Under the pieces are notes generated by a model. The model was not told where the DNA came from, made no database searches, and was given only the letters and a program-made list of their open reading frames with translations. From Ruminococcus sp. (lineage in GTDB: Bacteria; Bacillota; Clostridia; Oscillospirales; Ruminococcaceae): DNA of 37,524 bases. The position numbers were made by a program, and so were the translations under genes. The stretch covers positions 1-37,524 of the forward strand of contig JAFZRF010000039.1 in assembly GCA_017620025.1 (NCBI GenBank). The letters are read 5' to 3'. Position 1 is the stretch's first letter, and the number at the start of each line of letters is the position of its first letter. Shown piece after piece: positions 1-33,684 of the stretch.

Positions 1-208
1 CCGGGTGAGGAAAAGAAAACCGCAGTAAAAGCTGACATCCTCCCCCGTCCCAAGGTTTCCCCCTCTGGACTCCCCCTTCCTTGCCCTCCACCCCCTCCTG
101 TCAGCTTTTGCTTTTTATCGGAGACAGCAGGCCTTGTCAGGCTATCGCACGGGTGACATAATGTGCGCTGTTAGTTTTAGTTGCTGACTTCGGACGGGGT
201 GTAGGGGG
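1..208 (+). repeat. Dispersed structured repeat, copy A (5' end cut by window edge)
   Basis: Non-coding. Matches copies at 27221-27465 and 30146-30332 nearly base for base over the core, from the gaggaaaagaaaaccgcag block through the pyrimidine-rich middle to the ggctatcgcacggg tail (ends at 153). The stem-2 arms are gtaaaagctgac (near 26-37) and gtcagcttttgc (near 100-111). The upstream arm of stem 1 lies before the window start; its partner (tccccctctgg) is at 59-69. After the tail, about 50 bases up to about 205 are shared only with the 27221 copy. I do not recognise the family. No ORF or transposase is associated with it. Confidence 0.8.
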
Positions 209-524
209 CGATGCCTACATCGCCCCGCCACCTGTGTATTTCGCCCCCCCTGCTGTAGGGGCGGCCACTGGCCATCCGCCCGCCAACATCCTTTTATATG
301 GATACCCGATTCTTCACATGATATACGGATTGTAGGGGCTGCCTTCGGCAGCCCGCCCCCCCTTACGTCGACTCGCTACAATGCGGACGCCCAATGGGCG
401 TCTCTACAGATTGCTTGCAACTCATGACCAGCGGACCACCAAAGGCGGTCCCTACAGTCACCGTATACGTTGTGGCTGGCGGTACCGCAGATTCCGAATT
501 CCGAATTCCGCATTCCGAATTAAA
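209..524. repeat. Intergenic block of short palindromic units
   Basis: No gene seen. The stretch holds several short inverted repeats flanked by TGTAGGG or CTACAG: ggggcgatg/catcgcccc (205-226), ggcc-act-ggcc (253-284), ggctgcc-ttc-ggcagcc (331-360), acgccc-aat-gggcgt (383-409) and ggaccacc-aaa-ggcggtcc (431-457). The stems differ but the flanks and loop sizes are alike. It ends with an attccga-type tandem run (491-520). Related units recur at 26831, 30357 and 33803. Confidence 0.6.
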
Positions 525-6857: not shown

Positions 6858-8039
6858 TCAGTGATGGAAAAGTCTGATGCCTGTGAATGCCATTGCGATG
6901 TTGTACTTGTTGCAGGTCTCGATAACGTTGTCGTCACGGATAGAACCGCCGGGCTCTGCGATGTACTCAACGCCGGACTTCTTTGCTCTCTCGATGTTGT
7001 CGCCGAAGGGGAAGAATGCATCAGAGCCGAGGCATACGCCTGTGTTCTTTGCGAGCCACGCCTTCTTCTCTTCCCTTGTGAATACAGCAGGCTTTACCTT
7101 GAAGATACGCTGCCACTCACCCTCACGGAGAACGTCCTCGTACTCATCTCCGATGTATACATCGATAGCGTTGTCACGGTCAGCTCTGCGGATATCGTCC
7201 ACGAACTGGAGTCCCATTACCTGCGGGGACTGTCTCAGCCACCAGTTGTCTGCCTTCTGTCCGGCAAGACGTGTGCAGTGGATACGTGACTGCTGGCCTG
7301 CGCCGATACCGATAGCCTGTCCGTCCTTTACGTAGCATACAGAGTTGGACTGTGTATACTTGAGTGTGATGAGGGAGATAAGGAGATCGTCCTTCTTGTC
7401 GTCGGGGATATCCTTGTTCTCTGTAACGATGTTTGCGAGGAGCTCACGGTTGATATCGAGCTCGTTGCGTCCCTGCTCGAAGGATACGCCGTATACCTGC
7501 TTTGTTTCGATAGGTGCGGGCTTGTAGTTCTCGTCTATCTTCAGTATGCAGTATGTGCCCTTTCTCTTGGACTTCAGTATCTCAAGAGCCTCGGGATCGT
7601 AATCGGGAGCGATAACGCCGTCGGATACCTCACGCTGGATCATCCTGGCTGTGCATACGTCTACCTTGTCGGAAAGAGCGATGAAATCGCCGTAGGAGGA
7701 CATTCTGTCTGCGCCTCTTGCTCTTGCGTATGCGCTTGCAAGTGGTGTGAGCTCGCCGAGATCGTCTACCCAGTAGATCTTCTTGAGATCATCGGAGAGA
7801 GGACGTCCGATAGCTGCGCCGGCGGGTGATACGTGCTTGAAGGAAGTTGCAGCACATACGCCTGTTGCAGCCTTGAGCTCCTTTACGAGCTGCCAGCCGT
7901 TGAAGGCATCAAGGAGATTGATATAGCCGGGACGTCCGCAGAGCACCTCTATCGGGAGCTCGCTGCCGTCAGCCATATATACTCTTGAAGGCTTCTGATT
8001 CGGATTGCATCCGTACTTTAACTGCATTTCATTTGACAT
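6858..8039 (-). CDS. purH: Stand-alone AICAR transformylase (C-terminal half of PurH)
   Basis: Transfers a formyl group from 10-formyl-THF to AICAR, giving FAICAR, the penultimate step to IMP. At 393 residues it covers only the transformylase domain; the IMP cyclohydrolase half of bifunctional PurH is absent. Diagnostic segments are KYGCNPNQKPSRVYM at the start (the family's RYGENPHQ-like signature), TSFKHVSPAGAA near residue 66 (the Lys-His pair used in catalysis) and the C-terminal FFPFGDNIERA and EPGGSIRDD, ending TGIRLFHH. AAGGAGG precedes the ATG. The missing cyclohydrolase activity is supplied by purO (9657-10370) in the same gene run. The start Met is well placed, so this is a natural single-domain form and not a truncation. 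Confidence 0.93.
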   Translation of the reverse strand: MSNEMQLKYGCNPNQKPSRVYMADGSELPIEVLCGRPGYINLLDAFNGWQLVKELKAATGVCAATSFKHVSPAGAAIGRPLSDDLKKIYWVDDLGELTPLASAYARARGADRMSSYGDFIALSDKVDVCTARMIQREVSDGVIAPDYDPEALEILKSKRKGTYCILKIDENYKPAPIETKQVYGVSFEQGRNELDINRELLANIVTENKDIPDDKKDDLLISLITLKYTQSNSVCYVKDGQAIGIGAGQQSRIHCTRLAGQKADNWWLRQSPQVMGLQFVDDIRRADRDNAIDVYIGDEYEDVLREGEWQRIFKVKPAVFTREEKKAWLAKNTGVCLGSDAFFPFGDNIERAKKSGVEYIAEPGGSIRDDNVIETCNKYNIAMAFTGIRLFHH

Positions 8040-20964: not shown

Positions 20965-23376
20965 ATGGATGTTACACTTGTTACTACTTCCTTCAATGAC
21001 ACGGTCCATGGTACATTCAACGGAAAATTCACAGGCTGTAAGATAAACCTGCAGAAGTCCGAGAACGCTACCAAGTTCCGCAGAACTCATCTTATGACTG
21101 ACCTGGGCGAGATCACCTGCGAGAAGTGCAAGGCAAGGATCGCAAAGGAAATGATCAAGGCCGATCAGAAGGAAATGAAAGTGCTCCTCAAGGAGGAGAA
21201 GCTCCGTGCCAAGAGAGGCATCGAGGACGAGGGCATCGTTCCCCTCGGAAATACAACTGCAAAGATCACAGGTAACCAGCGCCACGACGACAGACGTGAC
21301 AGACGTGATTACGGCGGCGGTACTGAATACAGAGGCAGCAGTGCTTCAAACAGCAGCAACTACGGCGGCGGTTCCGAGTACAAGGGCAGCAGCAATAATT
21401 ACGGCGGCGGCACTGAGTACACAGGCAGCAGCAACAACTACGGCGGCGGCACCGAATACACAGGCAGCAGCAACAACTACGGCGGCGGTACTGAGTACAC
21501 TGGCAGCAGCAATAACTACGGCGGCGGCACTGAGTACAAGGGCAACAGCTATAACGAGCCCGCACAGGAAGAGCGTCCGAGACCTGCTCAGAAGCCCGCT
21601 GAGGAGAAGCCCATGGATGAGTTCAGCGCATTCATCGCTGCTCAGCCCAAGCCGAGAAATCCCCAGCCCCAGCCTCAGGCTCAGCCCCAGACACCTCTGG
21701 ATGACCCCTTCGCTGTTCCGGCACCCGCACCCGCAGCTGCACCCGCTGACGATGACGATTATCTCGCACAGTTCGCTATCCCGAAGCCGGCAGCTCCCGT
21801 TCCGCAGGCAGCCGCTCCTCAGGACGACTTCCTCGCACAGTTTGCTATACCTGCTCCCGCTCCGGCACAGCCCGAGCCCGCTCCTCAGCCTCAGGTACAG
21901 CAGCCTGCTCCCGCTGTGAACTCCGGCGACGATATAATGAATATGTTCTCAATAGGTGCCAAGCCCAGCTCTGAGCTCGACATCTTCAGCAATAACAGTG
22001 CTCCCGCAGCACCCAGCGCTTACAACAATTCCGATGTTATAGACGTTGCTGCTGATGCACTGACTCCCGCAGGCGCACCCGCAGAGGCAGAGCCCGGCAA
22101 TTCCGGCAACTCCGAGTGGGACCGTCTTGCAAACCAGCTCTTCGGCTTCGGCGGACAGGAGGCTCCTCAGGCAGCTCCGGCACAGCCCGCAGCTCCCGCA
22201 GCTCCGGCTCCTATGGGCATGGACGATCTGAGCTTCCCCGCACCCGGACAGACAGCTGCTCCGATACAGCCCGCTGCTGCTCCCGCACTTGACGATATCT
22301 CAGCTCCCATACTCGCTGATATCTCATCCGCTGCTGACGAGATCGTTGTTCCCGAGGCAGTATCCGATGATTATAACACCGGTCTCTCTGACGAGGACTT
22401 CATGGAAGAGGACGTTGACGATTCCGAGCTCCTCGATACAGACGATGATACAGCCGCTATAGAGGATATCGTATCCGCAGCCGCTGCTCAGGTAAGACCT
22501 CAGCCCGCTGCTCCCGTTATCCCGCAGGCTCCCGTTACTCCCAAGGCTCCTGTTGCTCCTAAGGCTCCCGCACAGCCCGCAGCAGTACAGCCCGGTACTC
22601 CGGTAATGCCCGCAGGTGCAGTTCCTCCCGCAGGCGCTGCTCAGCCCATCGTTACAGTTCCCCAGTTTGCAGGCTATGATGCTGCAAACCAGCCGATATA
22701 TACATACATCCAGATGCAGCTCACAGGCTACGATCAGAACGGCCAGCCGATTTACGCTCCCATGCCGGGTCAGCAGATGCCTATCCCGCCTGCAGCTCCC
22801 GCATACTCAGGTATGCAGTCCACTATCGGTGCTACATCACTCGGCACAGGCCAGAATGCAGCTCTTATCAATCAGATCCTCAACGAGCCTACTGATCCTT
22901 CAAACCTCACAATAGGCCAGAAGATCGCTGCTGCAAACGCTAACGTTGCCGATGTCCAGAACGTATCCAAGATCGCTGTACACCAGCACAACAAGGGTGC
23001 TTCACAGACATTCATCAGTGCTATTTCCGGTGCAAAGGCTTATGCAAACCAGAGCCTTACCGATACTCAGGGTCTCCAGCAGCATACAAGAGTTCTCGGC
23101 TCAGTTGAGGACGTACTCGCTGCTATGGGCGACACAAGCTACAAGCAGAAGCAGGCTGAGGCTGCTGCAAGACAGCAGGGCCCTGCCGGCGGAGCTAATT
23201 TCCACGTTGACGAATACAAGCCGTCTTCAAGACGTCCCGTACAGGCTTCTTCAAGACCTCCCATGCGTACTGTAGAGGATGAGAGATTCCTTACAAAGTC
23301 CGAGCTGAAGGCCAAAAAGAAGCAGGATAAGATCGATGCCAAGTTCAAGAAGGACATGGCCAAGAGAGGTCTCTGA
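20965..23376 (+). CDS. Large Ala/Pro/Gln-rich protein with YGGGTEY repeats, unknown function
   Basis: Not recognised. Of 803 residues, the N-terminal ~90 look folded and carry three Cys (GCKINLQ; CEKCKARIAKEM), possibly a small zinc site. They are followed by a Lys/Glu-rich helix. Six tandem units YGGG[TS]EY[TKR]G follow (about 116-195). A long disordered Ala/Pro/Gln part has recurring short motifs: DDDYLAQFAIP and DDFLAQFAIP, DDIMNMFSIG, LDDISAPILADISS. A pair GYDAANQPIYTY / GYDQNGQPIYAP sits near 571-595, and the C-terminus is very basic (KSELKAKKKQDKIDAKFKKDMAKRGL). No signal peptide. It looks like a cytoplasmic scaffold with linear binding motifs (inference). Confidence 0.85.
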   Translation: MDVTLVTTSFNDTVHGTFNGKFTGCKINLQKSENATKFRRTHLMTDLGEITCEKCKARIAKEMIKADQKEMKVLLKEEKLRAKRGIEDEGIVPLGNTTAKITGNQRHDDRRDRRDYGGGTEYRGSSASNSSNYGGGSEYKGSSNNYGGGTEYTGSSNNYGGGTEYTGSSNNYGGGTEYTGSSNNYGGGTEYKGNSYNEPAQEERPRPAQKPAEEKPMDEFSAFIAAQPKPRNPQPQPQAQPQTPLDDPFAVPAPAPAAAPADDDDYLAQFAIPKPAAPVPQAAAPQDDFLAQFAIPAPAPAQPEPAPQPQVQQPAPAVNSGDDIMNMFSIGAKPSSELDIFSNNSAPAAPSAYNNSDVIDVAADALTPAGAPAEAEPGNSGNSEWDRLANQLFGFGGQEAPQAAPAQPAAPAAPAPMGMDDLSFPAPGQTAAPIQPAAAPALDDISAPILADISSAADEIVVPEAVSDDYNTGLSDEDFMEEDVDDSELLDTDDDTAAIEDIVSAAAAQVRPQPAAPVIPQAPVTPKAPVAPKAPAQPAAVQPGTPVMPAGAVPPAGAAQPIVTVPQFAGYDAANQPIYTYIQMQLTGYDQNGQPIYAPMPGQQMPIPPAAPAYSGMQSTIGATSLGTGQNAALINQILNEPTDPSNLTIGQKIAAANANVADVQNVSKIAVHQHNKGASQTFISAISGAKAYANQSLTDTQGLQQHTRVLGSVEDVLAAMGDTSYKQKQAEAAARQQGPAGGANFHVDEYKPSSRRPVQASSRPPMRTVEDERFLTKSELKAKKKQDKIDAKFKKDMAKRGL
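21310..21549 (+). repeat. In-frame 39-bp tandem repeat
   Basis: Six units encode YGGG[TS]EY[TKR]G[SN]S-type sequence inside the 803-residue protein. The inner units are nearly identical at DNA level (tacggcggcggcac...), so copy number may vary between strains by slippage or recombination. Confidence 0.9.
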
Positions 23377-26792: not shown

Positions 26793-26830
26793 TGACAGGA
26801 TGTATCTGACTTACTGAATATGAGATTAAA

Positions 26831-26851
26831 GGGGCTGCCTTTGGCAGCCCC
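26831..26851. terminator. GC-rich hairpin after the lipid kinase gene
   Basis: Perfect arms ggggctgcc / ggcagcccc with loop ttt, 38 bases past the stop; no clear T-run follows. Nearly the same unit lies at 331-360, so it belongs to the short-palindrome family. The bases up to 26941 hold a further palindrome ending in ccctaca and no gene. Confidence 0.5.
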
Positions 26852-26941
26852 TGAATCATGTATATAGGGGCGGGGCGATGTAGGCACCGCCCCCTACACA
26901 CAACGAAGCCTGCTACCCAAAGTGACAACCCACATTAATTT

Positions 26942-27133
26942 GCCCGTGCGATAGCCGACTTTAGCCTGCGTGTTTGGAATAAAGCAAAAACCGGCAAAGG
27001 GAAGAAGAAAGGGGTGAGGGAAAAGAGAGTCCAGAGAGGAAAACCGTAGAGGGGAAAGAGGGAGGGAAATGCCGGTTTTTGCTGCGGTTTTCTTTTTCCC
27101 TCCCTCTTTCCCCCGGAGGTGTTCCTCTTTGGC
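26942..27133 (-). repeat. Dispersed structured repeat, copy D (inverted, divergent)
   Basis: Read on the minus strand it has the same order of elements as copies A-C: the caaagcca start, a first stem arm (ccaaagaggaa), the aaaagaaaaccgcag block, a second stem arm (gcaaaaaccggc, complement of 27071-27082), the partner of stem 1 (ttcctctctgg), the partner of stem 2 (gccggtttttgc, complement of 26984-26995) and the ggctatcgcacggg tail. Both stems differ in sequence from the other copies, but stem 2 pairs over all 12 bases and stem 1 over 10 of 11. It faces copy B, their 5' ends about 88 bases apart. Confidence 0.8.
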
Positions 27134-27220
27134 TTTGTTTGAGATTTTGCAAATCTCGAAAATTCAGACATAAGAATAATGAATCCTCGTTCTTTATTTC
27201 AATTTATCATACCTCTTACT

Positions 27221-27465
27221 TGTACTCACAAAGCCAGAGGGGGAGCCTTCGGGGAAACAGGGTGAGGAAAAGAAAACCGCAGTAAAAGCTGACATCCTCC
27301 CCCTTCCCCTACGGCTCCCCCTCTGGACTCCCCCTCACTCTCCCCTTGACCCCCTCCTGTCAGCTTTTGCTTTTATTTGAGACCAGCAGGCTAAATCAGG
27401 CTATCGCACGGGTGACATAATGTGCGCTGTTAGTTTAAGTTGCTGATTTCGGACGGGTGTAAGGG
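27221..27465 (+). repeat. Dispersed structured repeat, copy B (complete)
   Basis: The complete copy. Stem 1 pairs ccagagggggagcc (27234-27247) with ggctccccctctgg (27313-27326), 14 perfect pairs. Stem 2 pairs gtaaaagctgac with gtcagcttttgc (beginning near 27281 and 27358). The arms come in the order 1-2-1-2, a pseudoknot topology. The loops are purine-rich on the 5' side and almost pure C/T on the 3' side. The tail ggctatcgcacggg ends at 27412, and the following 50 bases are shared with copy A. No ORF is present. The remaining bases to serA's terminator contain an imperfect ggcgcacac/gtgcacc inverted repeat. Confidence 0.82.
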
Positions 27466-27511
27466 AGGCGCACACTGTGCACCCATTCCGAATAAAAGTG
27501 CATATACGCAA

Positions 27512-27537
27512 AAACCCCGGTCAGATGACCGGGGTTT
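27512..27537 (-). terminator. serA terminator
   Basis: Arms aaaccccggtca / tgaccggggttt, followed by T residues on the minus strand, 15 bases past the serA stop. It lies between serA and repeat copy B. Confidence 0.88.
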
Positions 27538-27552
27538 GTTTATCAGTATATC

Positions 27553-28716
27553 TTACTTCTCGATAACTCTTACACGGATAACGCCGTCTACAGAGTTGAT
27601 CTTGCCTACAACCTTAGCAGGAACATCACCGATAACGTCGAGCATTGTGTAAGCGAAGTCGCCCTTGCTTGCATTTGCCATGTTCTCGATGTTGAGTCCC
27701 TCGTTTCCTACTGCTGTAGTGATGGAAGCGATTGTTGTGGGAACGTTCTTGTGGATAACGCAGATCTTTGTGCCTACAGCGTTCATGCTGAGGTTAGGAA
27801 GATTTACGCTGTTTCTGATATTGCCGTTCTCGAGGAAGTCGATGAGCTCCTGAGCAGCCATAACAGCACAGTTGTCCTCGCTCTCGGGTGTGGAAGCACC
27901 GAGGTGGGGAAGTACGATAACGTTCTCAGCGCCGAGAACTGTATCATCAGCGAAGTCTGTAACGTACTTAGCGATCTTGCCGTCAGCGATAGCCTTTACT
28001 ACTGCCTCGCTGTTGATCAGCTCGCCTCTTGCGAGGTTGATGAGACGAACGCCGTCCTTCATCATTGCGATCTGCTCAGCGTCGATAGTGTTTGCTGTAT
28101 CCTTTGTGTAAGGCATATGGATTGTGATGTAGTCGCTCTCCTTGTAGATATCGTTGATATCTGTAACTACCTTTACGGTAGGCTCAAGGTGAAGAGCAGC
28201 ACCAACTGAGAGGAAGGGATCGTAACCGATAACCTTCATGCCGAGAGCCTCAGCAGCGTTTGCGATCTTGCCGCCGATAGCGCCGAGACCGATGATACCG
28301 AGAGTCTTGCAAGCGATCTCAGGGCCTGCGAACTTGGACTTTCCGGACTCTACAGTCTTGGGCGCGTCCTCTGTGCCCTTGAGTGAAGCAGCCCACTGAG
28401 CAGCCTCTACGATCTTTCTTGAGGAGATAAGGAGTGCAGCGATTGCGAGCTCCTTAACAGCGTTGGAGTTAGCACCGGGAGTATTGAATACTACGATACC
28501 CTCCTGAGCGCAGCGGTCAACAGGAATGTTGTTTACGCCTGCGCCTGCACGGGCGATAGCAAGGAGCTTGTCGCCGAATACCATGTCGTGCATCTTAGCG
28601 GAACGAACCATGATAGCGTCCGGATTAGCCGGTGCATCAGCTACAGCGTACTTGCTCTTGTCAAAAATATCAGTTCCCACTGCGGAGATCTTGTTGAGTG
28701 TCTGAATATTGAACAT
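27553..28716 (-). CDS. serA: D-3-phosphoglycerate dehydrogenase
   Basis: Oxidises 3-phosphoglycerate with NAD, the first step of serine synthesis. The 387 residues are the short form: substrate and nucleotide domains plus one C-terminal ACT domain (about 315-387, starting ICVIHKNVPTTIASIT). The Rossmann loop GLGAIGGKIANAAEALGM is near 146-163, the catalytic Arg in NLARGEL near 226-232 and the catalytic His in VLPHLGAST near 274-282. The ACT domain suggests amino-acid feedback. AGAGG precedes the ATG. It follows serC by 40 bases in the same direction, in reverse of pathway order. Confidence 0.95.
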   Translation of the reverse strand: MFNIQTLNKISAVGTDIFDKSKYAVADAPANPDAIMVRSAKMHDMVFGDKLLAIARAGAGVNNIPVDRCAQEGIVVFNTPGANSNAVKELAIAALLISSRKIVEAAQWAASLKGTEDAPKTVESGKSKFAGPEIACKTLGIIGLGAIGGKIANAAEALGMKVIGYDPFLSVGAALHLEPTVKVVTDINDIYKESDYITIHMPYTKDTANTIDAEQIAMMKDGVRLINLARGELINSEAVVKAIADGKIAKYVTDFADDTVLGAENVIVLPHLGASTPESEDNCAVMAAQELIDFLENGNIRNSVNLPNLSMNAVGTKICVIHKNVPTTIASITTAVGNEGLNIENMANASKGDFAYTMLDVIGDVPAKVVGKINSVDGVIRVRVIEK

Positions 28717-30145: not shown

Positions 30146-30332
30146 TGTACTCACAATGCCAGAGGGGGAACCCAGGGGAGCCCAGGGAAGAAAAGAAAAC
30201 CGCAGTAAAAGCTGACATCCTCCCCCTTCCCCAGTTTTCCCCCTCTGGACTCCCCCTTCCTTGCCCCTTATCCCCCTCCTGTCAGCTTTTGCTTTGTTAA
30301 GACCAGCAGGCTAAATCCGGCTATCGCACGGG
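30146..30332 (+). repeat. Dispersed structured repeat, copy C
   Basis: Stem 1 pairs ccagagggggaa (30159-30170) with ttccccctctgg (30237-30248). Stem 2 is identical to copies A and B. The 5' boundary is shared with copy B from tgtactcacaa, and the 3' boundary is at gcacggg (30332), without the 50-base extension of A and B. Confidence 0.82.
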
Positions 30333-30532
30333 CAGCCTAAAAGTTTATGATACTTTGCGGACGGCCAATGGCCAACCCTACAGTCTTACCCTATTTTAAA
30401 TACATCGCCGCAGGCGATACCGCCAATTATGCATTATGAATTAAGAATTATGAATTGAAAAGCTAACGGCTAAAGGCTAACGGCTTATGGCTCTAAATAA
30501 TTCTGCATTCTTAATTCTGAATTCAGCATTAA
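30333..30532. other. Intergenic sequence with simple repeats
   Basis: No gene seen. It holds one short palindrome unit (gcggac-ggcc-aat-ggcc...ccctacag, 30357-30383), AT-rich near-repeats (aattatg/aattaag/aattatg) and a tandem 'aaagctaacggct' motif near 30460-30490. Confidence 0.55.
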
Positions 30533-32088: not shown

Positions 32089-33684
32089 ATGAAAATGACA
32101 TTTATCGGTGCCACCCATGAGGTCACCGGAAGCTGTACATATATCGAGGCCTGCGGAAAGAAGTTCCTTGTGGATTTCGGTATGCAGCAGGGAGAGGACA
32201 TTTACGAGAACGTGCAGGTGCCTGTTGCTCCGGGACACATCGACTTTGTGCTCCTTACCCATGCCCACATCGACCACTCCGGTATGCTGCCGCTGCTCTA
32301 TGCCGGCGGATTCGGCGGAGAGATACACGCCACAACAGCCACAGCCAACCTCTGCTCCGTAATGCTCCGTGACTCCGCACATATCCAGGAGTTCGAGGCT
32401 GAATGGAGAAGCAGGAAGGCGCACAGAAGAGGTGAGCCGGACTATGAGCCGCTCTACACTATGGAAGACGCTCTCGGCGCTATCTCACTCTTCGTGCCGC
32501 ATGAGTACGAAAAGGAGTATGAGCTTGCACCCGGAATAAAGGTATTCTTCCGTGATGCCGGACACCTTCTCGGTTCATCGAGTATTGTTCTCACCCTCAC
32601 AGAGGACGGTGAGACAAGAAGGATAGTATTCTCCGGCGATATAGGAAATACCGCACAGCCCCTCATACGTGACCCGCAGTACATCGACGAGGCGGACTAT
32701 GCCGTTATCGAATCGACCTACGGCAACCGTGAGCACGAACGCCCGACCGACTACGTAACGGCACTCGCAGAGGTGCTTCAGACTACCTTCGACCGCAAGG
32801 GTACTGTTATCATTCCCTCCTTCGCTGTCGGAAGGACTCAGGAGATGCTCTACTTCATCCGTCAGATAAAGGAAGACGGTCTCGTAAAGGGACACGACGG
32901 CTTCAAGGTCTACGTCGATTCCCCGCTTGCAAACGAAGCTACGGATATATTCATCAACAACCGTGAGAGCTGCTACGACGAGGAGGCGCTATCCTATGTC
33001 CGCAAGGGTATAAACCCCATTGAGTTCGAGGGACTTATCCGCACTGTCACCAGCGATGACTCCCGTGCGATAAACTTCAACAATATGCCTAAGGTCATCA
33101 TCTCCGCAAGCGGTATGTGTGAGGCAGGACGAATCAAGCACCACCTCAAGCACCACCTCTGGGAGAAGCAGAATACAGTTCTCTTTGTAGGATATCAGGC
33201 AACGAACACTCTCGGCAGAGCTCTTGTTGAGGGTGCCAAGAAGGTAAAGCTCTTCGGCGAGACGGTGCGTGTTGCAGCCGAGATAAAGCAGCTGCCCGGC
33301 GTCAGCGGTCATGCCGATGTGAACGGTCTGCTGAAATGGGCGGAGGCTGTCAAGGGCGTGAAGAAGTTCTTCGTCAACCACGGCGAGGCTTCGTCTGCTG
33401 AGGCCTTTGCACAGCGCCTGCGTGACGACCTCGGTGCTGATGTATATGCACCGTACAGCGGAGCGGAATTCGACCTCATCACCGGCGAGGTGACTATAGA
33501 TGCAGAGCCTGTCCCGATTCCGAAGAAGGAGGGCTATGCAAATCTCAGTGCAGCCTATGCCGCACTCAAGGCAGCGACCGACAGGCTCTCACAGCTTGTC
33601 GATGATTCCTCCGGCAGAACGAATGCAGATATGCGGAAGCTTGCAGAGGATATCAATAAGCTTTGTGAGGACTGGCAGTTATAA
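32089..33684 (+). CDS. Metallo-beta-lactamase / beta-CASP RNA-processing-type hydrolase
   Basis: The 531-residue protein has the two-zinc signature THAHIDHSG near residues 58-66, DAGHLLGSSS near 157-166 and FSGDIGN near 179-185. Beta-CASP elements follow: VDSPLANEATDIF near 285, ASGMCEAGRIKHHLKHHL near 340-357, and GHADVNGLLKW near 405, where motif C His is found. This is the CPSF73/YSH1-type architecture used for RNA cleavage. It lacks the RNase J-type start, and a ~60-residue helical C-terminal extension follows. No signal peptide; cytoplasmic. The target RNA is unknown. Monocistronic with its own promoter and terminator. Confidence 0.93.
   Translation: MKMTFIGATHEVTGSCTYIEACGKKFLVDFGMQQGEDIYENVQVPVAPGHIDFVLLTHAHIDHSGMLPLLYAGGFGGEIHATTATANLCSVMLRDSAHIQEFEAEWRSRKAHRRGEPDYEPLYTMEDALGAISLFVPHEYEKEYELAPGIKVFFRDAGHLLGSSSIVLTLTEDGETRRIVFSGDIGNTAQPLIRDPQYIDEADYAVIESTYGNREHERPTDYVTALAEVLQTTFDRKGTVIIPSFAVGRTQEMLYFIRQIKEDGLVKGHDGFKVYVDSPLANEATDIFINNRESCYDEEALSYVRKGINPIEFEGLIRTVTSDDSRAINFNNMPKVIISASGMCEAGRIKHHLKHHLWEKQNTVLFVGYQATNTLGRALVEGAKKVKLFGETVRVAAEIKQLPGVSGHADVNGLLKWAEAVKGVKKFFVNHGEASSAEAFAQRLRDDLGADVYAPYSGAEFDLITGEVTIDAEPVPIPKKEGYANLSAAYAALKAATDRLSQLVDDSSGRTNADMRKLAEDINKLCEDWQL

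Follow-up and report, generated by a model that had tools for sequence, protein, structure and literature searches.

An intergenic repeat of Ruminococcus carries on one strand a purine arm (Pu), a pyrimidine arm (Py) and a third arm, and comparison of divergent copies leaves us highly confident that these three arms are coupled in a triplex-like register. On balance we favour reading it as a dispersed intergenic DNA repeat that could fold, as a single strand, into an intrastrand triple helix that a pseudoknot locks in place, and we lean slightly towards this DNA triplex-pseudoknot as the operative form. Comparative sequence analysis establishes stem 1, stem 2 and the mirror coupling of the third arm with the Py arm; what we infer is that a triplex actually forms, that folding falls to the purine strand and that the element acts as DNA. 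Among the papers listed in literature searches, none described a Ruminococcus triplex repeat or a pseudoknot-locked triplex repeat.

Anatomy of the repeat and covariation of its two stems

The window, that is, the whole 37,524-nt stretch of DNA analysed here (contig C49), holds three plus-strand copies (1-208, 27221-27465 and 30146-30332) and one inverted copy (26942-27133), just where an earlier note on this DNA had placed them. The "four-copy" label of that note is right for the window and too small for the genome, in which a BLAST search with the 27221 copy returned 59 matches. Its arm order of 1-2-1-2 is also borne out, and its helix lengths need revision: stem 1 is longer than the 12-14 pairs claimed, and the 12-pair stem 2 has 11 pairs in B copies and 14 in the A copy. 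What it described as a second C/T-rich stretch (27327-27357) is the third arm, a mirror of the Py arm, which it had missed. Coordinates are collected in Table 1.

Table 1. Predicted parts of the copies in the window, with the evidence for each where given.
Copy	Feature	Position	Strand	Evidence or remark
B	purine arm (Pu) of stem 1	27234..27268	+	DNA fold pairs it with 27295-27326; stem-1 covariation
B	stem 2 5' arm AAAAGCTGACA, within hairpin loop	27284..27294	+	pairs with 27358-27368; covariation
B	pyrimidine arm (Py), Watson-Crick partner in stem 1	27295..27326	+	DNA fold; covariation
B	third arm, mirror of Py (predicted triplex third strand)	27327..27357	+	mirror test, swap test
B	stem 2 3' arm TGTCAGCTTTT	27358..27368	+	covariation
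B	conserved tail GGCTATCGCACGGG (this genome and sister species)	27399..27412	+	
A (inverted)	purine arm	27095..27132	-	
A	stem 2 5' arm AGCAAAAACCGGCA	27070..27083	-	pairs with 26983-26996
A	pyrimidine arm	27031..27069	-	
A	third arm, mirror of pyrimidine arm	26997..27030	-	p ~0.001
A	stem 2 3' arm TGCCGGTTTTTGCT	26983..26996	-	
A	tail with GGCTATCGCACGGG	26943..26970	-	
A-B	spacer, 101 nt	27133..27233	.	
Lone B (B3)	purine arm	30159..30191	+	
B3	stem 2 5' arm	30207..30217	+	
B3	pyrimidine arm	30218..30248	+	
B3	third arm	30249..30279	+	mirror p 0.0015; direct p 0.0105
B3	stem 2 3' arm	30280..30290	+	
Contig-start B (purine arm cut)	stem 2 5' arm	27..37	+	
Contig-start B	pyrimidine arm	38..68	+	
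Contig-start B	third arm	69..98	+	
Contig-start B	stem 2 3' arm	99..109	+	

The element spans ~120-160 nt, with a hairpin loop of ~26 nt that carries the 5' arm of stem 2 and a third arm of 25-42 nt lying on an interrupted stem. In the 27221 copy the Pu-to-Py loop is 26 nt long (27269-27294), and stem 1 consists of two segments flanking a small internal loop (TTC/TAC by eye). The copy at 1-208 is truncated by the contig start and lacks about two-thirds of its purine arm. Compared with shuffled sequences, the DNA folding energy is low for 27233-27373 (z -3.7 and -4.2 for the two strands) and for the type A copy (z -3.4 and -2.9), and the 30158-30295 hairpin is unexceptional (z -0.9 and -0.7).

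In the larger alignment that the earlier note had proposed as a check, both stems covary. The alignment comprises 105 model hits from 91 chosen loci, equivalent to 101 distinct rows. For stem 2, 95.8% of the 1067 cells are paired, and 142 cells carry double changes as against 42.2 (sd 7.1) in shuffles and 4-16 when the partner is slid by 1-3 columns; changes on both sides occur in 7 of the 11 pairs. For stem 1, to which the alignment was fitted, 93.2% of cells are paired, with 324 double-change cells against 98.2 in shuffles. The two interleaved helices thus show compensatory changes in both, as expected of an H-type pseudoknot. Stem-2 arms as different as AAAAGCTGACA, AAAAGTCGGCA, AAAAACCGGCA, AAAATCCGACA, AAAAATTGACA and AAAAGCCGGCG each come with their exact complement. 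Because our unit scanners demand an exact stem 2 of at least 9 nt, the perfection of stem 2 in scanned units is by construction; the covariance model R1 was made without stem-2 pairs, from 17 sequences that all have an intact stem 2. Departures occur: some type A copies from R. flavefaciens and its relatives (L087, L088, L142, L143 and L155) have a partly broken stem 2, and in the lineage of genomes G015 and G094 it seemingly shrinks to ~4 pairs. These two genomes also hold a related element (L243-L246, L251 and L252 in G094; L031 1277-1371 in G015) that has a different, non-purine upper stem (CGGGCGACACCTCGTCCG...) and in which the lower stem and a portion of the third arm are preserved, possibly a further subtype.

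Mirror coupling of the third arm

To score the third arm, 111 stem-2-based units (45 + 66, duplicates included) were reduced to 88 distinct arm pairs and then to 22 representatives below 80% identity, some of which come from one genome. Two chimeras of an A purine arm and a B pyrimidine arm near contig starts (L018 and L019), probably products of misassembly, were left out before counting, as were units in which the pyrimidine arm has no recognisable end (for example, L034). A lineage with a short stem 2 (12 units, 3 representatives) and 4 units from other genera were tested apart. With the alignment fitted to the mirror, as it also was for the letter tally below, the third arm matches the Py arm in mirror orientation at p < 0.05 in 21 of 22 representatives (mean z 3.34 relative to composition-preserving shuffles of the third arm); the direct orientation reaches this level in 3 of 22 (mean z 0.45). 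Mirror matches extend over 25-41 aligned positions with a median identity of 77%. For the third arm of the 27221 copy, z is 3.8 and p 0.002, or p 0.001 in the representative set (L005, the same arms). All three short-stem-2 representatives have significant mirrors (p 0.0027, 0.013 and 0.0027), as do 3 of the 4 units from two other genera of the family; the fourth (L274) has p 0.17. The 0.05 level is also missed by L103, L081 and L085-. The direct orientation is the better match in L032/L090 and about equals the mirror in L072, and it reaches p < 0.05 alongside the mirror in L010, L059, L113 and L033+/L091+.

A swap test, in which the match of each third arm to its own Py arm was compared with its match to the arms of other lineages, gave in mirror orientation an own-arm residual of 6.73 (z 10.7), with the own arm ranked first in 17 of 22; adding the three short-stem-2 representatives raised z to 12.0 (own first in 17 of 25). 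The corresponding values were 1.10 (z 2.5, own first in 3 of 22) for the direct orientation and 0.83 (z 1.8, 1 of 22) for shuffled Py arms, which retain composition only. This excess indicates that the third arm and the Py arm change together, in mirror register, across divergent lineages. As the lineages are related, the permutation p is not a strict probability, and the direct and composition controls share that relatedness.

Ordinary copying and template switching yield direct or inverted repeats and do not produce mirrors. A direct-repeat origin was considered as a general account of the third arm and rejected, as the direct orientation is far weaker in both the mirror and the swap tests. 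We also regard it as very improbable that the mirror is a low-complexity by-product of two C/T-rich stretches and that only the two-stem pseudoknot is real. All arms are indeed C/T-rich, and the small own-lineage excess for direct orientation and for shuffled arms would be expected from such a by-product; yet the mirror far exceeds third-arm shuffles, shuffled Py arms and the direct orientation, and is retained by lineages whose arms are interrupted (GGCGGAGGGG, GGGGCGGGG). Equally hard to credit is the idea that the G-rich arms form G-quadruplexes and that everything else is incidental: the purine strand does contain many runs of 4-6 G, but quadruplexes leave the matched T positions, the covariation of both stems and the mirror register unexplained. 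In three type A copies (L023, L046 and L050) the pyrimidine and third arms have changed together (TTT to CTC, at mirror positions) over an unchanged purine arm, by recombination between copies or as short-read chimeras.

Mirror coupling is a signature of triple helices, which is why we see in the element an intrastrand triplex with a pseudoknot as its lock: judged by sequence only, its three same-strand arms are able to form Watson-Crick plus (reverse) Hoogsteen triads. In the predicted fold, the purine and pyrimidine arms would pair as a long interrupted hairpin, the third arm would fold back along it, and stem 2 would join the hairpin loop to the sequence past the third arm. By bridging the loop and the flank of the third arm in this way, stem 2 would clamp the third strand in place.

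Which strand folds, and as which nucleic acid

Mirror symmetry alone fits a pyrimidine-motif triplex on the written strand and a purine-motif triplex on the other strand alike; a pyrimidine-motif triplex on one strand couples with a purine-motif class on the other (Holder et al. 2015, PMC4666352). On the purine-rich strand the order would be stem-2 arm, third purine arm, purine arm, stem-2 arm, loop and pyrimidine arm, with the third arm antiparallel to the purine arm, as in the purine motif (G.G-C, A.A-T and T.A-T triads). The letters of the third strand were tallied against a control given by the mean of shuffled, realigned arms. At G-C pairs, C occurs at 245 of 268 positions (control 211 of ~258) and A at 3 (control 16); at A-T pairs, T occurs at 172 of 231 (control 144 of ~200), A at 47 (control 17) and C at 10 (control 37). 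The share of T at A-T pairs is no higher than in the realigned control. When A and G letters were masked during alignment and the first 3 nt omitted, a third-arm A faced a pyrimidine-arm T 31 times and a C 5 times (odds ratio 9.4, p 6e-8; bootstrap 95% interval of the log odds ratio 1.6-3.2). The purine motif accepts A or T at A-T pairs (PMC4666352, introduction). A third-arm A at such a pair corresponds to T.A-T on the purine strand and so favours that strand.

Isolated mismatches in stem 1, masked in the alignment, point the same way. Of 56 such cases, 35 have a third arm that agrees with the pyrimidine arm (shuffles, 19 of 53), and 10 have one that agrees with the complement of the purine arm (shuffles, 7); the signal comes mainly from C.T and T.C, and wobble-type mismatches alone split 7 to 3. 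In a purine-motif fold, the arm thus followed is exactly the one that the third strand contacts, so this result also favours the purine strand. Wobble counts conflict on which strand folds. In the letter tally, A.C/C.A outnumber G.T/T.G by 56 to 24 distinct contexts, with 11 of 46 A.C contexts representing one conserved position and others lying at helix ends. Stem 2 contains 3 G-T type and 20 A-C type cells among its 1067, several of both at the edges. In stem 1 of the model alignment, by contrast, G.T exceeds A.C by 93 to 24, with 87 of the 93 in four possibly misaligned column pairs.

These counts bear on the guess that the repeat is a non-coding RNA family, one of three offered in the earlier note. 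In that case the pyrimidine-rich strand would be transcribed into a pseudoknot with a parallel pyrimidine-motif triple helix (U.A-U, C+.G-C), perhaps sensitive to pH, a possibility that we find quite doubtful. Stem covariation and mirror coupling suit RNA equally, the G.T excess in stem 1 agrees with it, and purine-motif intrastrand triplexes are absent from RNA while pyrimidine-motif ones occur there, according to PMC4666352. Against this, a third-strand A at an A-T pair makes no pyrimidine-motif triad, the third arm at mismatches tends to follow the Py arm and not the Pu arm that it would contact, stem 2 is poor in G-T cells, and there are dozens of copies in one genome, in both orientations to genes. 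A promoter or terminator role found no support either: a scan of 26800-27560 counted 1 promoter-like site where shuffles gave 0.7, and 3 terminator-like sites where they gave 1.2 (sd 1.2). The earlier note had not recognised the element as a known RNA, and none of 4227 Rfam families reaches its gathering cut-off over the window. The 83 weaker matches, each below the cut-off of its family, are mostly to microRNA models, with a few others such as AniS, CopA and snoRNAs; the best, MIR7533, scores 61 bits against a cut-off of 230 (E 7e-11). The RNA guess gains no positive support, and a structured DNA element fits best of the three. The lean to the purine motif, combined with the absence of purine-motif triplexes from RNA, would favour DNA.

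Dispersal, mobility and relation to known elements

With 59 BLAST matches in a 2.71-Mb, 70-contig genome, the family is not a chance occurrence. Of these matches, 37 lie no more than 200 bp from a contig end (~0.6 expected), and 33 of 140 contig ends have a copy within that distance; the true copy number is therefore probably higher, and the copies may explain why the genome assembled poorly. The inverted type A copy and the type B copy at 27221 form one head-to-head (5'-to-5') unit separated by 101 nt. Among the sites listed, 10 others here and 1 in the sister species have an A-B pair with a spacer of 101-103 nt, and two outlying spacers measure 225 and 282 nt. Spacers of the other pairs have in common with that in the window their outline and a GAGATTT..AAATCTC palindrome. 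Four other genomes (G060, G020, G079 and G111) have 3'-3' pairs of a longer and a shorter type, as opposed to the 5'-5' pairs here.

In the genus, R1 has matches at E 0.01 or better in 36 of 125 genomes, the present one among them; in the order, at E 0.001, it has them in 9 of the 245 genomes sampled. These searches used stricter filters and scored a capped number of candidates, so that copy numbers are lower bounds. The order-level matches comprise this genome, G028 and four genomes from two further genera of the family (three in one, one in the other); the remaining three (G276, G366 and G280; L277-L279) lie outside the family, showed no arms on inspection and were judged by eye to be chance. 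An exact 19-base core pattern occurs in 33 stretches of named genomes. Arms are present, some cut or deleted, in 22 of them, 21 titled Ruminococcus (including R. flavefaciens FD-1 and MAGs from horse and roe deer) and 1 a goat Oscillospiraceae MAG. The other 11, from various bacteria, have no arms and look like chance.

Among the 56 copies with enough flank, 45 lie between ORFs (13 divergent, 8 convergent, 12 sense and 12 antisense, counting both partners of some units), with no orientation bias to genes; the remaining 11 fall inside long ORFs that we take to be mostly spurious. The A-B unit of the window is flanked by the ends of two genes, one DAGK_cat (diacylglycerol kinase family) and one for a serA-like 2-hydroxyacid dehydrogenase, and the lone copy lies between the starts of an aminotransferase class-V (serC-like) gene and a gene with no Pfam match. 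A Beta-CASP/RMMBL metallo-hydrolase gene (32089-33681) is second downstream of the lone copy, with no link suggested, and an 803-aa ORF (20965-23376) contains in-frame 39-bp tandem repeats at 21351-21555.

The sister species G133 is 95% identical over the serA-like gene. At three shared sites an A-B pair here corresponds to a lone B there (L002/L086, L008/L057 and L020/L074), at one B3 corresponds to another B type (L010/L081), and at one both species have A-B (L003/L064). The A-B pair at 26.9-27.4 kb is absent from the sister species, beside a rearranged neighbour. Few orthologous sites were compared, and none was a clean empty site; as only element-bearing loci were taken, the comparison shows shared sites and not the frequency of loss. 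It suggests long-lived intergenic sites with turnover of the occupant.

The intergenic regions around the elements are mosaics of several repeat families. Short palindromic repeats such as TGTAGGGGCTGCCTTCGGCAGCCC and GCGGTCCCTAC lie beside elements in the window (200-460 and 30350-30420) and in L081 (~7530-7730). A similar palindromic insert of ~50-60 nt interrupts the pyrimidine arm in L146 (434-649, G133) and L270 (~640-837, G127), where another repeat family has landed inside the element. The tail motif ATCGCACGGG recurs 46-72 nt downstream in L021, L022 and L078, as if it were a repeat in its own right. A 54-nt direct repeat (L057 7217-7270 and 7572-7625) flanks a lone B of the sister species, a possible trace of spread.

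Another guess of the earlier note, a mobile element moved by a structure-reading enzyme, was not borne out. Such a non-autonomous element would have its pseudoknot read by a transposase or recombinase (of the REPIN/RAYT, IS200/IS605 or attC-like kind), with the triple strand as part of the recognition; this is somewhat unlikely in our estimate, and it and the triplex-pseudoknot explanation are not mutually exclusive. High copy number, inverted A-B units, the patchy distribution across the genus and, by eye, borders close to the fold in other lineages speak for mobility. The Y1 family PF01797, however, matches 41 of 125 genus genomes and has no match in this one (G000, 76% complete). Up to 1.5 kb from 24 PF01797 loci, 20 with mostly divergent RAYT-like Y1 genes and 4 canonical, there is no convincing element (sole match 12.3 bits, E 0.11), and hence no sign of a REPIN/RAYT partnership; an enzyme encoded farther away may still take part. 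Distant BLAST found no match in plasmids or phages, and IMG/VR gave none to one exact core pattern. The several sites common to the sister species, with no clean empty site among the few compared, also count against mobility.

The triplex-pseudoknot that we favour has its nearest known counterpart in kind in the BoxC/PIT/TM repeats of E. coli (Hoyne et al. 2000, 2002, as cited in Holder et al. 2015, PMC4666352). Both are dispersed intergenic repeats with an intrastrand triplex motif (predicted here), no strand bias, no linked mobility gene and no consistent neighbouring genes. Both have types A and B, and the five close inverted pairs of BoxC always join one A to one B; the inverted A + B pairs and the intergenic placement without orientation bias (45 of 56 copies) recur here. 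BoxC/TM is 37 nt long and described as a class II purine motif, in which the pyrimidine domain comes first; the sections consulted mention neither a stem 2 nor a pseudoknot. The Ruminococcus element differs in arm order (class I on the purine strand and class III on the other), in size, in its long loop, in its predicted interrupted triplex and, above all, in the covarying pseudoknot clamp. Published triplex searches used stems of 6-15 with loops of 1-6, or more than 7 perfect triads with loops of 0-10 nt, as given in PMC4666352; the 26-nt loop lies beyond these limits, and such searches would be expected to miss the element.

Other known systems resemble it in part. With H-DNA it shares the mirror symmetry of a purine-pyrimidine tract; unlike H-DNA, it has its Watson-Crick partner arm in the same strand and a stem 2 that closes the fold. 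REPs are palindromes of 20-40 bp; REPINs and BIMEs with RAYTs are likewise inverted pairs of structured intergenic repeats in high copy, but no RAYT adjacency was seen here at the 24 PF01797 loci. Telomerase RNA and SAM-II are H-type pseudoknots with interleaved stems and a third strand along a stem, with few triples, whereas the third arm here would span the long stem. Type III toxin-antitoxin RNAs combine a pseudoknot and triple-strand contacts in tandem repeats beside a toxin gene; no toxin gene was seen next to the copies looked at.

By analogy with BoxC, we propose that the element may behave as a selfish or structural genome repeat and not as a gene regulator. The triplex-pseudoknot would form transiently on a single strand during replication or repair, where it could impede the polymerase and promote template switching, which would fit both the inverted arrangement of A-B units and copy turnover at shared sites. 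For BoxC, PMC4666352 describes an association with local genome variability and a triplex shown in vitro, a stable triplex not supported by in vivo DMS footprinting, and PIT elements that block DNA polymerase in vitro with no effect in vivo; these in vivo negatives weigh against the proposed impediment of replication.

We rate it an even call that the repeats represent a natural nucleic-acid fold, maintained across three genera within one family, whose third strand would run along a long hairpin for 25-41 aligned positions under a covarying pseudoknot clamp, and which would act as a DNA structure with an influence on genome stability or else as a very long triplex RNA. If true, this would be, to our knowledge, the first long triple helix to be backed by the joint evolution of its strands. 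The reality of genomic triplexes, as against chance, has long been an open question, and the variation in this family allows all three arms to be followed. Its many natural variants, mirror-keeping and mirror-breaking, would suit a direct test of triplex formation and tests of an effect on replication or recombination in R. flavefaciens, whose FD-1 strain genome has copies.
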